Below, piece after piece: positions 1 through 37,661 of a stretch of 64,000 nt of DNA (the first letter of the stretch is position 1; each line of letters begins with the position of its first letter). Below the pieces are notes generated by a model that saw only the letters and a program-made list of their open reading frames with translations, was not told the DNA's origin and ran no database searches. Source of the DNA: Roseibium album (GTDB lineage Bacteria; Pseudomonadota; Alphaproteobacteria; Rhizobiales; Stappiaceae). The position numbers were made by a program, and so were the translations under genes. The stretch covers positions 186,151 through 250,150 of the forward strand of contig CXTY01000017.1 of the NCBI GenBank assembly GCA_001404055.1, given 5' to 3'.

Positions 1-876
1 GACTTTAACGGCCTACCAGCATTTGATGTTCTCAGCCCCGCTGATCAACGGCTGCCGTTTGTTTTCAACTCCCCGCATTCGGGCCGACAATATTCAAAGA
101 GCTTTCTGGCCTCTTCCCGCCTGGATGAAAAGTCCATTCGGCGATCAGAAGATGCTTATGTGGACGACCTTTTCGCCCATGTCGTTCCTTTAGGAGCGCC
201 GCTCCTGCGCGCACATTTTCCCAGGGCCTATCTGGATGTAAATCGCGAGCCGTATGAACTCGACCCCAAGATGTTCGACGGCAGATTGCCTTCTTATGCC
301 AATGTCCGCTCGATACGGGTTGCTGGCGGATTGGGCACGGTTGCACGAATCGTGAGTGAAAATCATGAGATTTACAAACATAAGCTACCTGTCGAAGAGG
401 CGCTCATCAGGGTTGAGGAAATCTACAAGCCCTACCACACGACGCTGCGCAGGCTGTTGGCGCAAACCCATGTCACCTTTGGTCATGCGGTTCTGATCGA
501 CTGTCATTCCATGCCTTCCAGCGTCAAATGTCAGACGACAGACACTCGTCCCGATTTCATTCTGGGTGACAGATACGGCACGAGCTGCAACAGTGACCTG
601 ACCGAATTCGCCTGTTCAGTCCTGAAAAACATGGGTTACAGCGTCAATCGCAATAAACCCTATGCAGGTGGTTTCATCACGGAACATTACGGCAGACCCG
701 CAAGCGGATTGCATGCCCTGCAAATCGAAATCAACCGCGGGCTCTACATGGATGAGACGACGCAAGAACCGACTGCCGGCTTCAGTGACCTCTTTCATAA
801 TCTGAAAGATTTTGCGCGCGAACTGACATCCATGCCTGACGCGGCACTTCCCGCAGATTCAATCGCAGCTGAATAA
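1..876 (+). CDS. N-formylglutamate amidohydrolase family protein (5' partial)
   Basis: The family hydrolyses N-formyl amino acids, classically N-formylglutamate at the end of histidine breakdown, to formate and the free amino acid in the cytoplasm. The open frame runs from the first base of the window, so the true start lies upstream. The motif FNSPHSGRQY near the visible N-terminus and the later LIDCHSMPS are the metal-ligand and active-site blocks of the family. About 291 residues are visible, near the usual full length, so only a short N-terminal piece is missing. No other hut gene is visible, so the exact substrate is open. The TAA stop overlaps the T-run of the opposing sRNA terminator. 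Confidence 0.88.
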   Translation, partial: DFNGLPAFDVLSPADQRLPFVFNSPHSGRQYSKSFLASSRLDEKSIRRSEDAYVDDLFAHVVPLGAPLLRAHFPRAYLDVNREPYELDPKMFDGRLPSYANVRSIRVAGGLGTVARIVSENHEIYKHKLPVEEALIRVEEIYKPYHTTLRRLLAQTHVTFGHAVLIDCHSMPSSVKCQTTDTRPDFILGDRYGTSCNSDLTEFACSVLKNMGYSVNRNKPYAGGFITEHYGRPASGLHALQIEINRGLYMDETTQEPTAGFSDLFHNLKDFARELTSMPDAALPADSIAAE

Positions 877-877
877 A

Positions 878-959
878 AAGAAGGCCGCGCTCAAATGAGG
901 CGGCCCGAAGTCTTGGGAGGAAACGCCCAAGAAGGGCGTATGCGACATTGGATGCCGCA
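878..959 (-). ncRNA. Candidate trans-acting sRNA of the MmgR/suhB (alpha-r8) type
   Basis: An RNA of about 80 nt read leftward. A stem-loop made of 926-931 with 912-917 displays a loop of CGTTTCCT, giving an exposed C/U-rich anti-Shine-Dalgarno stretch. It is followed by a terminator hairpin (900-905 and 896-899 with 883-888 and 890-893, one bulged base) and a T-rich tail at 874-882. A promoter with a 17-bp spacer sits directly upstream. The length, the C/U loop and the position beside an inositol-monophosphatase-family gene fit the rhizobial MmgR/suhB family, whose S. meliloti member is about 77 nt and affects storage granules. The family name is from memory of its consensus; the transcript architecture is visible in the sequence. 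Confidence 0.6.
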
Positions 960-3280: not shown

Positions 3281-3703
3281 TTACCAGCGTGACTGCCAGC
3301 GATTCCTGCGGTGCATTGGACGAATACGGACAATTTGGGCTGTGCGCGCATCAACCACCAAGCGCAGTCGTTTACCCTGCCAGCCTCTCGCTTTCACAAT
3401 ATAGACCGAACCACGTCGATCCAGAATTCTCACCTTGTGAAATCCGCGATGACGCAGGCTGCGGCGTATCTGGCGTGGTCTTAGTTCGTAATACCCCCAA
3501 CCCTGGTCGCGCTGCCACTGACCGTGTCCCCGGCGCATATTCCCTCTGCGGTTATCGATCTGGATAACCGGCGCGGCATGCGATGACTGGTAGTTTCGCT
3601 CTGCAGCCATAGGCGCTGCTGATGCGAATGACGCAAACCCGACAGACGCGAGAAAAATTGCTCCGGCGAGTGGTGCAGAAAGCTTTGATGCTTTGGCAAA
3701 CAT
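3281..3703 (-). CDS. Small basic secreted protein of unknown function, PepSY-like repeat
   Basis: I do not recognise a named gene. The protein of 140 residues begins with a clear signal peptide (LSAPLAGAIFLASVGFASFASA) and should be periplasmic or secreted. The mature part is rich in Arg, Trp and Gln. Its C-terminal half, LRPRQIRRSLRHRGF followed by VYIVKARGWQGKRLRLVVD, has the beta-alpha-beta rhythm of PepSY-like domains common in Rhizobiales exported proteins. The start was set at the ATG directly before the signal peptide; an upstream in-frame extension to 3796 has no signal-like sequence. A tandem hairpin follows the stop. Confidence 0.6.
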   Translation of the reverse strand: MFAKASKLSAPLAGAIFLASVGFASFASAAPMAAERNYQSSHAAPVIQIDNRRGNMRRGHGQWQRDQGWGYYELRPRQIRRSLRHRGFHKVRILDRRGSVYIVKARGWQGKRLRLVVDARTAQIVRIRPMHRRNRWQSRW

Positions 3704-3977
3704 GTTCGTATCTCCCGATGACGCCACCAGCGTTGCGCCGGTGTTGATGTGAAAATGCACCAGGTCGGTTGAACCCAATCGGAAGGAAGCGTTCATGTGG
3801 GGTTCATCTTCAAGTGACGGTCAAAACCACGCGCCTCTTGAAAAGAAAAATCCGAGTTCCCACCTTTGTTGTTGCAGGCGCCAATCTAGGGTCTGCATCG
3901 AAATCCTGTCCCGCCAGTTCGGGGGATATGGATCCAAAATATGTGAAGTATCAGTTGCTCAAAGAGAGGACAGAATC

Positions 3978-5721: not shown

Positions 5722-6306
5722 TTAGTAGTACATTTCCCGCCTGCGATAATAGCGGCCAAACAGCCAGTCCAGCGATATGACGCCCGGGCCTTTCAGCGTC
5801 GGCACCAACAACAGGAAGATCCAGAGCAAGCGGTCGTCAGAAATGATTGCGTATGGCTGGCCGTCAAACAGCATGCCGACTGTTTTCGCATCGGCGCCAT
5901 GACCGGTGATGTCGACGTAGGACATGACAATGATGAAGACAATCATCCCAAGGCTGGCAAAACGCGTAAACAGTCCAACCACGACGAGCACGGGCAAAAT
6001 GAACTCTGCCCAGGTACCGAGCAAGACAGTCAAACCGTATGGGAAGAATGCAATCTGGCTTGTATCGTAGCTAACCTGTTCCATTAGCTTCGGAAACATC
6101 TGCGCATAAGCCCCTGCCGTCGGGGTAAAGATGTTCATCACGTTGCCACCGATCTTCGTCAGTGCGGAATTCCAGAAAAACTGAAGCAAAATCGCGGCGA
6201 AAATGAACCTGGCGGCGAGGCCCAACAGCCAACCGTTGGTCACCCGTTCCAGCGCTCCAAACACAAACGTGTAGAGCCTGACAAAAAATCCGATCAGCAC
6301 ACCCAT
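5722..6306 (-). CDS. DoxX family membrane protein of the bufferin operon (BufD-like)
   Basis: A small inner-membrane protein of 194 residues with about four transmembrane helices, for example FIFAAILLQFFWNSAL, LTVLLGTWAEFILPVLVVVG and FASLGMIVFIIVMSYV. DoxX proteins often accompany DUF692/DUF2063/DUF2282 genes; their job is not settled and may involve redox exchange or assistance in export. It is the last gene of the operon, 42 nt after the DUF2063 gene, with a GGGGG Shine-Dalgarno five bases before the ATG. The context supports the BufD-like name; sequence alone would only give DoxX. Confidence 0.82.
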   Translation of the reverse strand: MGVLIGFFVRLYTFVFGALERVTNGWLLGLAARFIFAAILLQFFWNSALTKIGGNVMNIFTPTAGAYAQMFPKLMEQVSYDTSQIAFFPYGLTVLLGTWAEFILPVLVVVGLFTRFASLGMIVFIIVMSYVDITGHGADAKTVGMLFDGQPYAIISDDRLLWIFLLLVPTLKGPGVISLDWLFGRYYRRREMYY

Positions 6307-6348
6307 AAAAACCCCCTGGTCAATTGCCGGTTTTCTCCGGCTATTGCT

Positions 6349-7146
6349 TTATCCATCATTTTGAAGACCGGTAAAAGCACCGCTTGAAAGACAATCCGAA
6401 AGACAATCGGATAGTGAAAATTCCTGACGTTGCGCCTGCGCTTTCGCGGCGGCATCGCCTAAGGTAACACCTTCAAACAAGGCATTAAGAAATACATCGC
6501 CGCCAGGCCGCAAGAGATAAAGATCCACATCCAGATCCGGGCGGGTAATCAAGACGGCTTGCGATCTGTTGAGGTCGATCTCAATCGCGTTGTCTGTCTC
6601 AAACCTGTTGACGCGCACCAGATCCCAGATCGGCCATGAACTGGCGACGAGACGCGCCGCTGGATGCCTGACAAAGCGCACACGACCCACACAGTCCGGA
6701 TCTGTCTGGCCAAGAAGCGCAGGATCCATGGGCGCTGCGTCTTTCGCATGATAAGCCTGCAACCAGTCCCATTCGACACGGGCAACGTCCGCAAGATAGG
6801 AATATGCTTCCAGCGGTGGAAACGCCTCGATGAAGTCCGCGAACTCAGCACCATACCAGATGAGAACGGGTGATTTTGGCGGGTGCTGCAGAACAAATGC
6901 ACGGGCAAGCGCGCTGAAATACTCTTCGCCGAGCAACGCCTTTATTGCCGGGAAAGTGTGTTCCAATGCCTCACGAAGACTGACAATCACGTTGTTCCGA
7001 TAAACACTGAACCGTTTTGGCGCGTTCAGGCCGTCAGGACCGATCAGTCCTGCTGGCGTGCCAGCTTCCGGATCGAGCAAAGCTCGTCCGAACTCACTTG
7101 TACCAGTTCTTGGAAATGAGATTGGAGCACGCATCTTAGCTTGCAT
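6349..7146 (-). CDS. DUF2063 (HvfC/BufC) partner protein
   Basis: Partner subunit that acts with MNIO (DUF692) enzymes; its N-terminal DNA-binding-like domain is thought to hold the leader of the precursor peptide. The hallmark block is [20 protein letters not shown] with [18 protein letters not shown] after it, followed by the alpha-helical and beta C-terminal domain. The gene overlaps the end of the DUF692 gene: the ATG at 7146 overlaps the upstream stop, and the ATG at 7134 lies one base after it, so translation is probably coupled either way. Near the C-terminus a 12-nt tandem duplication (6386-6409) repeats the residues SDCL. Length is 265 or 261 residues, normal for the family. Confidence 0.85.
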
Positions 7147-8032
7147 GCCTGATGTCTGGGTCTGCATTCCGTCGAAGAACTTGATCGGCAGCCTTTGCTT
7201 CCGAAAGCAGAACCGGCCAGGTCGGAACATCATTGTCCCATTCAATCAGCGTCGGAATTGGCCCAACATGCTGAATGACCTGTTCATAAAGCGCCCAGAC
7301 CGCTTCATCGACTTCCCGGTCATGTGCATCGATCAACAGCGGGCGGTCGGCATCGTCAACGTCTGGTGCGTGACCACCAAGGTGAATTTCACCAACTTCC
7401 TGCATTGGAAATTCGGAAAGATAGGCTTCAGCCGATCTTTCGTGATTGGTGCAGGATACATGAACATTATTGACGTCGAGCAGAAGACCGCAGCCTGTTC
7501 GGCGCGCGATTTCCTTCAGAAACTCCAATTCACTCATCGTGCTTTGTTCGAAGGCAACATAGGTTGACGGATTTTCGAGAAGCATCCGCCGACCGACGAA
7601 CTCCTGCACTTCATCAATGTGATCACACACCCGGTCGAGTGTGGGTTGGTCATAAGGAACCGGTAAAAGGTCGTTGAAATAGGTCACATCATGGGTAGAC
7701 CAGGCCAGGTGCTCGGAAAATAAACCCGGCTCATAACGTTTGTTCAGTGCAGCAAGCCTCTGAAGGTGTTCCTTGTCGAGCGAAGTCTCTCCCCCTATCG
7801 AAAGACCTACACCGTGTAGAGACAGGGGATAATCTTTTCGAATTTCTTCGAGTTGCCGATGCGGCGGGCCACCGGCCCCCATATAGTTTTCCGCATGGAC
7901 TTCGAAAAAACCGACGTCCGCCTTTGTTTCCAGGATTTCAGAAATGTGCTCCGGCTTCAACCCAGCTCCTGCGCGCACCGGAATGGCAGCATCAACGCGG
8001 GAAGACGCTTGGGCGGGGGTTTCTGGAAACAT
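7136..8032 (-). CDS. DUF692 multinuclear non-heme iron oxidative enzyme (BufB-like)
   Basis: MNIO enzymes bind two or three irons in a TIM barrel and oxidatively rewrite cysteines of small peptides; the bufferin members make thiooxazoles. The candidate ligand residues are all present: HGVGLSIGG (His 73), SEHLAWS (Glu 107, His 108), LLENPS (Glu 153), [10 protein letters not shown] (Asp 186, Asn 188, His 191), EIHLGGHA (His 217, His 221), DAHDREV (Asp 235, His 237) and LIEWDND (Glu 264). At 298 residues it has the standard length, and no signal peptide is seen, so it acts in the cytoplasm. It follows the precursor gene after a hairpin-bearing gap and overlaps or abuts the DUF2063 gene. Confidence 0.92.
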
Positions 8033-8063
8033 AGCGCGCTCCTATGGGGAGAACTGGATTTCT

Positions 8064-8117
8064 GGCAGGCGGCAAATCCGCCTGCCCGAAATATCTATCG
8101 TGAAAACGGCAGTTTTC
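8064..8117 (-). promoter_or_regulatory. Two intercistronic hairpins between precursor and enzyme genes
   Basis: Reading leftward after the precursor stop there is a 6-bp hairpin (8112-8117 with 8102-8107) and then a perfect 9-bp GC-rich hairpin (8078-8086 with 8064-8072, 5-nt loop). No T-run follows, so partial attenuation or stabilisation of the precursor mRNA is more likely than full termination. This would raise peptide over enzyme levels. Confidence 0.55.
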
Positions 8118-8128
8118 ATAATGCTGGA

Positions 8129-8428
8129 TTAAGCTTCCGGCAAGTCGCGCTTGAGCTCAGTCAGGGAGCCGTGACGATCACCAGGTACGTCCATGGTCGC
8201 GCAAGTACCTTTGGGCACCAAGGTCCAGGCATTACCCTGATAATCGACAGTTGAAGTACCGGCACACGTTGTACCAGCGCCCGCTTTGCAATCGTTCTGA
8301 CCTTTCAGGGAAACACCGTAGCATTTCTCTTTCGCCGCGGCGTGCGCGGGGACAGTTGTCGACAAACCTGCAACAGCAGTTGCAACGGCACCAGCAACGA
8401 TTGCTGCGGACATAGCCTTATGCTTCAT
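8129..8428 (-). CDS. DUF2282 bufferin-type precursor peptide (BufA-like)
   Basis: A 99-residue exported peptide. Residues 1-30 form a Sec signal peptide ending in AHA. The mature part carries four cysteines at 36, 47, 55 and 76 in the context [22 protein letters not shown] and GTCATMD, which is the pattern of bufferin family 1. In the studied Caulobacter peptides two cysteines become thiooxazoles and the others form a disulfide, giving a periplasmic copper-binding molecule. Here the modification is inferred. The C-terminus has an extra acidic-basic tail after residue 80. A GAGGAG Shine-Dalgarno lies six bases before the ATG. It is the first gene of the operon, as expected of the precursor. 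Confidence 0.88.
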
Positions 8429-8626
8429 TTAAAACTCCTCTGGTCGAACCTTAAATCCAATATAAGCCAACGCTTCGTCGGTGCAGCGCGGCACAGCTTG
8501 TACATGCGCATTTTGGCGATAAATAGGAAATCAAACGCCTGTGACCGTTTTGCGAGCGCGGCTTAACAATCTTTTCTAGCGCAATATTGTTACCCAAAAT
8601 CCACCAGATTAGACCTTTCCGGACAA

Positions 8627-8656
8627 TTGGCACTTTTTGTGCGAAACAATTATAAT
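8627..8656 (+). promoter_or_regulatory. Promoter candidate for gltBD (sigma70, overlapping a sigma54-like site)
   Basis: TTGGCA (8627-8632) and a perfect TATAAT (8651-8656) are 18 bp apart. The same stretch also fits a weak sigma54 -24/-12 site, with GG at 8629-8630 and GC at 8641-8642 exactly ten bases apart, although the -12 box reads GTGC rather than TTGC. Nitrogen genes make a sigma54 reading attractive, but the sigma70 match is stronger. Confidence 0.45.
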
Positions 8657-36935: not shown

Positions 36936-37661
36936 TTGCGAACAAGCTCCGCACCGACAGCAAAAAGATTGGTCTTCATTGTCGATGATGAACCGGAAAT
37001 CGGCCAGCTTCTCCTGGAAGCCATGACCCAATTCGGCATCGAGGGACAGGTTTTTTCTACAGCCTACTCAATGCTCGCGGCCCTCAAGGATCAGATCCCG
37101 GACGCCTGCATTGTGGACCTTGGTCTTCCGGATATGGAGGGCATGGCATTGATCAACGAAATTCGGCGGCAATCCTCGGTTCCGATCATTGTTCTTTCGG
37201 CCCGTGGTCACTCAACCGACCGGGTTCTGGGACTTGAGCTTGGTGCGGATGATTACGTCGTAAAGCCTTTCGACCCACGTGAGGTCGTTGCCCGAATACG
37301 GTCGATCTTGCGTCGATCTTCAGATCAGTCGGATCCTGTCCAACAGGTAGAACTTGCAAGGTTCGAAGGTTGGGTCTATCAGCCCTCGTCCCATTGCCTC
37401 ACGTCTCCAGAAGGCGAGGAGACGTTTCTCTCCACTGGAGAAGCAACGCTGCTGGAGGCTCTCCTGCGTGCGCCAAAGCGTGTGCTGACACGCGACTATC
37501 TGCTGGAGCACGGTGGCCGGGACGAAAGCCTGGATCGTTCTATCGATGTGCGCATTTCCCGCATTCGCAAGAAACTCAACCGGAAGAACGAACCCGTCCA
37601 CATCCGAACGATCTACGGGTCAGGCTACATGCTTGCCTGCGAAGTGAAATGGGGCAGCTGA
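36936..37661 (+). CDS. OmpR/PhoB-type response regulator
   Basis: A DNA-binding regulator of 241 residues. The receiver domain has FIVDDEPEIGQ and the phospho-Asp in ACIVDLGLPDMEG, with the Lys in DDYVVKPFDPRE. The C-terminal winged helix includes SRIRKKLNRKNEPVHIRTIY and GSGYMLACE. The start is TTG, eight bases after AGGA and just behind the kinase stop, so the two genes form one operon. The targets are not apparent from the neighbours. Confidence 0.92.
   Translation: MRTSSAPTAKRLVFIVDDEPEIGQLLLEAMTQFGIEGQVFSTAYSMLAALKDQIPDACIVDLGLPDMEGMALINEIRRQSSVPIIVLSARGHSTDRVLGLELGADDYVVKPFDPREVVARIRSILRRSSDQSDPVQQVELARFEGWVYQPSSHCLTSPEGEETFLSTGEATLLEALLRAPKRVLTRDYLLEHGGRDESLDRSIDVRISRIRKKLNRKNEPVHIRTIYGSGYMLACEVKWGS

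Follow-up and report, generated by a model that had tools for sequence, protein, structure and literature searches.

The stretch of DNA analysed here, referred to as the window, comprises 64,000 nucleotides of Roseibium album contig CXTY01000017.1 and carries on its minus strand four genes that very probably constitute a chromosomal bufferin-1 operon of a known kind, a judgement that takes the identity and the mode of action of the operon jointly. The operon itself is ordinary and complete, and the new point is a conserved control region upstream of it. Judging by sequence conservation, transcription is probably governed by an element of consensus GTMAC-N6-TTGATTTCC-N2-TTKAT within this region, acting with a regulator encoded elsewhere, which would replace the adjacent SigF-NrsF pair (extracytoplasmic function (ECF) group ECF16) of related operons. 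The features concerned are:

8519-8545, minus strand: upstream element GTCAC-N6-TTGATTTCC-N2-TTTAT, an exact match to the consensus; candidate operator or promoter
8428-8129, minus strand: bufA, bufferin-1 precursor, 99 amino acids (DUF2282, PF10048, 88.9 bits against a cut-off of 22.4; peptide conservation)
8032-7136, minus strand: bufB, multinuclear non-haem iron oxidative enzyme (MNIO, DUF692) acting as bufferin maturase, 298 amino acids (Pfam, NCBIfam and alignment with 3bww)
About 7146-6349, minus strand: bufC, partner protein with DUF2063 and RRE-type domains (Pfam DUF2063; fold matches of the model)
6306-5722, minus strand: doxX, DoxX-family membrane protein, 194 amino acids (Pfam, 26.0 bits; family-wide presence)

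Of 87 genomes from the family Stappiaceae, that of the window among them, 72 encode a DUF2282 precursor, as do 100 of the 289 sampled across the class. When the regions upstream of bufA were compared in 43 Roseibium genomes (that of the window and 42 of the 43 others with bufA), the DNA aligned poorly except for one block, which is the element. When a 20-base pattern was scored with up to three mismatches allowed, 70 of the 72 family genomes proved to carry the element, 99-150 bases ahead of bufA, and in 43 the match was exact. In the window its 5' end lies 117 bases ahead of the bufA start, and the match is exact, where 0.01 matches with up to three mismatches would be expected by chance. None of 72 shuffled upstream regions came within three mismatches, all having at least five, and the same minimum of five was seen in all 28 scorable upstream regions from the class. 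The two family genomes in which the element was not found are G084 (locus L044) and that of locus L100. No paper on the element or on Roseibium bufferins was found in the open-access literature among the matches listed.

Whole-genome searches at up to one mismatch returned the element in 53 of the 87 family genomes, and all 43 exact matches precede bufA. Six matches lay away from bufA, each with one mismatch, the same number as was obtained with a reversed control pattern. The genome of the window has one exact site and, at two mismatches, five sites against four for the reversed pattern. The idea of an element-defined regulon was therefore rejected: since matches are no commoner than those of the control, no second target can be claimed.

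The control of homologous operons is described for other alphaproteobacteria. PMC3511200 describes the Caulobacter crescentus operon as transcribed under SigF from a GTAACC-N16-CGAA promoter and held in check by NrsF, and it is reported to be copper-induced (PMC8224329). Neither these genes nor this promoter was found at the Roseibium locus: NrsF is absent from the genome by profile search, the genome encodes no close homologue of SigF (the best ECF sigma factor shares 30% identity with an operon-linked sigma factor of Nitrobacter), and no SigF-type promoter within one mismatch lies between bufA and the divergent gltB in the window. The homologous four-gene operon SMb20530-SMb20527 of Sinorhizobium meliloti is described in PMC6180224 as a target of the ECF16 pair RpoE7-EcfR7; unlike the operon of the window, it is ECF16-controlled and divergent from rpoE7. 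By its sequence, then, the locus is not of the SigF-NrsF (ECF16) controlled subtype, and because this switch is missing, copper induction is not simply transferable from Caulobacter. No regulator was recognised among five flanking proteins scanned in the window (an alpha/beta hydrolase, HSP20, Beta_elim_lyase, glutamate synthase and one without family at 3281-3796), or among five flanking proteins of family loci L249, L250 and L252 (methyl-accepting chemotaxis protein, DUF459/GDSL and Beta_elim_lyase).

NrsF was found in one of the 87 family genomes only, G084, where it lies approximately 3 kb from bufA, along with an ECF sigma gene, and where GTAACG-N16-CGAA stands before bufA. Five flanking proteins scanned in this genome (L251) comprised one ECF sigma factor and four without match. 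The G084 locus shows seven mismatches to the element. Its BufB (57%) and DoxX (28%) have the lowest similarity in the family to the proteins of the window, and for BufC, too, its value of 35% ranks near the bottom (that of L045 being 34%); these data suggest that the locus was acquired separately.

Beyond the family, the two arrangements were compared in 80 named loci, these being the listed matches from a search with BufB (at least 80 exist), of which 15 are Stappiaceae. bufA and bufC accompany bufB in all 80, and doxX does so in 69 (E 0.01). The exact TTGATTTCC core stands within 200 bases before bufA in 22 of these loci and a sigma or NrsF gene occurs within the fetched flanks of 32, with no locus having both. 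A SigF-type promoter (up to one mismatch) precedes bufA in 14, none of them with the core. Leaving aside the Stappiaceae, a sigma or NrsF gene was present in 0 of 9 core-bearing loci versus 32 of 56 core-lacking loci (Fisher p 0.002, uncorrected for kinship).

Several observations weigh against the view that the element and a distant regulator stand in for SigF-NrsF. Neither the core nor a sigma or NrsF gene was found nearby in 26 of the 80 named loci (22 without and 4 with the ltaE-like gene described below). The sigma and NrsF genes were sought within 3.5 kb flanks, so that genes farther out would have escaped notice, and for one locus (L149) upstream DNA was lacking. On a tree of 72 BufB sequences the core requires at least eight changes, three of which are forced by well-supported branches; shared ancestry therefore explains much of the pattern and inflates the absence of overlap. 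Within the family, L100 has neither the element (five mismatches, as poor as the shuffled regions) nor NrsF. Against the mode of action proposed for the operon, reporters of its S. meliloti homologue described in PMC6180224 gave no response to H2O2, cadmium or chromate, and a metal signal is therefore not universal.

The nature of the element itself admits two further interpretations. It could feasibly be a tandem operator of OmpR/PhoB type, with half-sites GTMAC, TTGAT and TTKAT at 11-base spacing, from which the promoter would be activated on its -35 side. A period of 11 in the table of element sites and the presence in the genome of 20 Trans_reg_C matches, 19 of them over the cut-off, make this a real possibility, if one somewhat short of an even chance, given that the half-sites differ from each other, that the genome has no second strong site, and that the scanned flanking proteins include no regulator of this type, the nearest being 29 kb away. 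An OmpR-type response regulator DNA-binding domain, one of the 20 matches, is encoded at about 37413-37634 on the plus strand, 29 kb from bufA, and is a candidate for the missing regulator. Alternatively, the element might be a promoter recognised by a different ECF sigma factor, with GTMACR as its -35 region, a 16-base spacer and TTKA as its -10 region, having drifted from the ECF16 sequence GTAACC-N16-CGAA. GTMAC does resemble the -35 regions of the SigF and RpoE7 promoters described in PMC3511200 and PMC6180224, and the 16 bases between it and TTKA equal the spacing in those promoters. However, the most conserved letters (TTTGATTTCC) would then fall in the spacer, and the cognate ECF16 sigma factor is absent from the genome, as is NrsF. 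In addition, exact GTMAC was seen in none of the nine non-Stappiaceae loci chosen for exact TTGATTTCC, four having ATAAC instead; since these loci were chosen by the core, this indicates no more than that GTMAC is the less strictly kept portion of the element. Overall, the ECF promoter is possible but on the doubtful side.

The identity of the operon was examined gene by gene. The earlier note, made from the DNA letters, had proposed an operon of precursor, MNIO, DUF2063 partner and DoxX protein, and all four genes were confirmed on the minus strand with their profiles passed. They are transcribed in the order bufA, bufB, bufC, doxX, the canonical bufferin-1 order. The precursor, including the positions of its cysteines (36, 47, 55 and 76) and its length, is as first described, and the match to DUF2282, which had been suggested as a check, was well above the cut-off. 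BufB scores 358.7 bits with Pfam MbnB_TglH_ChrH (cut-off 25) and 392.5 bits with NCBIfam NF050167 MNIO_BufB (cut-off 310), and BufC scores 93.7 bits with Pfam DUF2063 (PF09836; cut-off 27.2). The bufferin assignment is thus supported by the DUF2282 precursor, a maturase above its cut-off, a DUF2063 and RRE-type partner, a DoxX protein and the order of the genes. The overlap of bufB and bufC put forward in the earlier note depends on the start codon: it amounts to 11 bases if the bufC ATG is at 7146 and vanishes if it is at 7134, the alternative starts being 7134 or 7167. The 5.99 Mb host genome has a single DUF2282 match and a single MNIO match by profile search, and Roseibium/Labrenzia are the nearest named relatives by BufB. 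All 71 other family loci examined likewise have the four genes in succession on a single strand, and the gene set is therefore not due to chance. Direct observations are the presence, order, family assignment and conservation of the genes, together with the fold predicted for BufC. Less favourably for the assignment, DoxX is barely over its Pfam cut-off (26.0 bits against 23.6), and the structure model of BufA is poor, with a predicted local distance difference test score (pLDDT) of 69, too weak for a fold search or a check of the disulfide; nor did a sequence search with BufA return any match in the PDB.

Residues 1-30 of BufA resemble a signal peptide by eye, with a lysine-rich start, a hydrophobic stretch and AHA before residue 31, and the DUF2282 match spans residues 33-81. 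C36, C47, C55 and C76 are identical in all 71 intact family peptides (that of the window and 70 others) and in all 29 class peptides examined, the latter coming from the best-scoring 29 of the loci of 100 class genomes and not from a random draw. The peptide ends in RDLPEA. A tail beyond residue 80 had been singled out as a difference from the Caulobacter peptides; the tail is real, but as an odd feature of one peptide it was rejected, because a motif RD(L/N/V/M)P occurs within the last 12 residues of every one of the 71 intact family peptides, which makes it a feature of the lineage. With N permitted also at the second place, the motif was seen in 6 of the 29 class peptides, and GSL directly before it is more widespread than the tail. 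Three loci (L100, L101 and L102) have BufA variants with seven additional residues between C76 and the tail. In a further locus, L103 (G003), bufA has a frameshift inside the DUF2282 region and continues into the bufB frame, representing either a broken gene or a sequencing error, and this precursor was excluded from the peptide counts.

BufB aligns with the solved MNIO structure 3bww (E 1.6e-39) and shares with it ten positions, H73, H108, E153, D186, N189, H217, D235, H237, E264 and D266. These His, Asp, Glu and Asn residues are identical in 72 of 72 sequences (the window and 71 of the 80 named loci), which agrees with the earlier description of a DUF692 enzyme with putative iron ligands. 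A sequence search of the PDB with BufC gave no match at E 0.01; the structure model of BufC (pLDDT 94) matches TglI (8hci, 8hi7) and NGO1945 (3dee), the sole three chains with E below 0.001, and therefore agrees with a PME-type 1 partner as described in the literature. On the predicted model, BufC is such a partner, with DUF2063 and an RRE-type domain. According to PMC13097082, every MNIO-PME1 system characterised so far introduces 5-thiooxazole, and copper is generally bound.

Among the closest described counterparts is the bufferin-1 operon of Caulobacter vibrioides (CCNA_03363-03366; CC3254-CC3257), which, compared by families and gene order as given in PMC3511200 and PMC8224329, has the same order of DUF2282, DUF692, DUF2063 and DoxX genes. 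The captophorins with EGKCG repeats (oxazolin, fontiphorin) likewise combine an MNIO with a DUF2063 partner and are expected to contain 5-thiooxazole, whereas BufA of the window has no such repeats, being a DUF2282 precursor with four cysteines; the EGKCG/oxazolin profiles also remained below cut-off (HvfB 232.2 of 360, HvfC 51.4 of 142 and HvfX 27.4 of 80 bits). The match of BufA to the bufferin-2 profile (NCBIfam Cu_RiPP_BufA2) is weak, at 23 bits against a cut-off of 60, and bufferin-2 peptides are described in PMC12452194 as having mostly six cysteines, compared with four here.

By analogy with these published homologues, from which the chemistry, export and copper binding are taken, BufA would be made with a Sec-type signal that doubles as the leader; for bufferin biosynthesis the signal peptide is stated to serve recognition (PMC13419390, citing a 2026 paper). 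A cytoplasmic complex of BufB and BufC would oxidise the central C47 and C55 to 5-thiooxazoles, after which the modified peptide would be exported and its signal cleaved, the outer C36 and C76 would close a disulfide, and the mature peptide of approximately 69 residues would bind excess periplasmic copper, with DoxX perhaps assisting in some way. The earlier proposal that the cysteines become thiooxazoles therefore stands for C47 and C55 and not for all four: the legend to Fig. 3 of PMC12452194 states that only the central cysteines of bufferin-1 are modified, the first and last forming a disulfide, and hence two thiooxazoles are expected. It is unlikely that the precursor is left unmodified or modified otherwise, with the operon serving a non-copper stress (gold, chromate, cadmium or oxidants). 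The Legionella gig operon is reported to respond to gold as well as copper (PMC5413113), and C. crescentus SigF targets to chromate and cadmium (PMC3511200), but the generalisation in PMC13097082 quoted above, and a BufB that passes the bufferin maturase cut-off, argue for a copper-related thiooxazole peptide.

With regard to neighbouring genes, that the element belongs to the divergent gltB rather than to bufA is highly improbable: gltB adjoins in 68 of 71 family loci, but in L045 and L046, where it is not adjacent, the site (three mismatches each) is retained before bufA, to which the element therefore belongs, while the core precedes bufA in loci of other families and a match at up to one mismatch is missing from all 15 family genomes that lack bufA. 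Thirteen of those 15 belong to a single genus (g7), which has 14 genomes in the set, and the other two are assemblies in 680 and 980 contigs. A sigma-70-like promoter match (11 of 12) lies upstream of gltB at 8627-8656 on the plus strand; matches of this type are not more frequent here than in shuffled sequence (2 against 2.5). On the other side of the operon the following gene is found:

5676-4618, minus strand: ltaE-like gene, Beta_elim_lyase of threonine-aldolase type (Pfam), 45 bases after doxX

In 64 of 71 family loci such a gene comes after doxX in the same orientation, with alignment gaps of 43-203 bases. In the remaining seven, inspection of 904-1278 bases past doxX revealed none. It adjoins the upstream side of bufA in eight named loci outside the family (L150, L151, L165, L179, L184, L197, L202 and L204), and a sigma or NrsF gene is nearby in 0 of the 24 named loci listed with an ltaE-like gene. 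A required role for ltaE in the operon was rejected, because the seven loci lacking it retain all four genes and six of them (all but L044) keep the element within three mismatches. The ltaE-like gene is accordingly regarded as a conserved neighbour whose operon link is putative and unproven. Elsewhere in the window, the sole Rfam match at gathering thresholds is:

868-944, minus strand: suhB/mmgR small RNA (67.2 bits)

Taken together, these data raise the prospect, which we would put at about even, that there are at least two types of bufferin-1 control. One is the ECF16 type with SigF-NrsF; the other, in Roseibium and several other Hyphomicrobiales lineages, would rely on a trans-acting regulator encoded away from the operon and on a GTMAC-N6-TTGATTTCC-N2-TTKAT element present once per genome, usually with a threonine-aldolase-type gene as neighbour, and may sense a signal other than that of NrsF. 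The element thus poses a testable question, namely what activates bufferins where SigF-NrsF is absent and whether copper is still the signal, and with one strong site per genome it offers a clean bait for the missing regulator. For the family, the operon is a near-fixed trait of a common group of marine bacteria, which is hereby added to the map of copper-buffering peptides.

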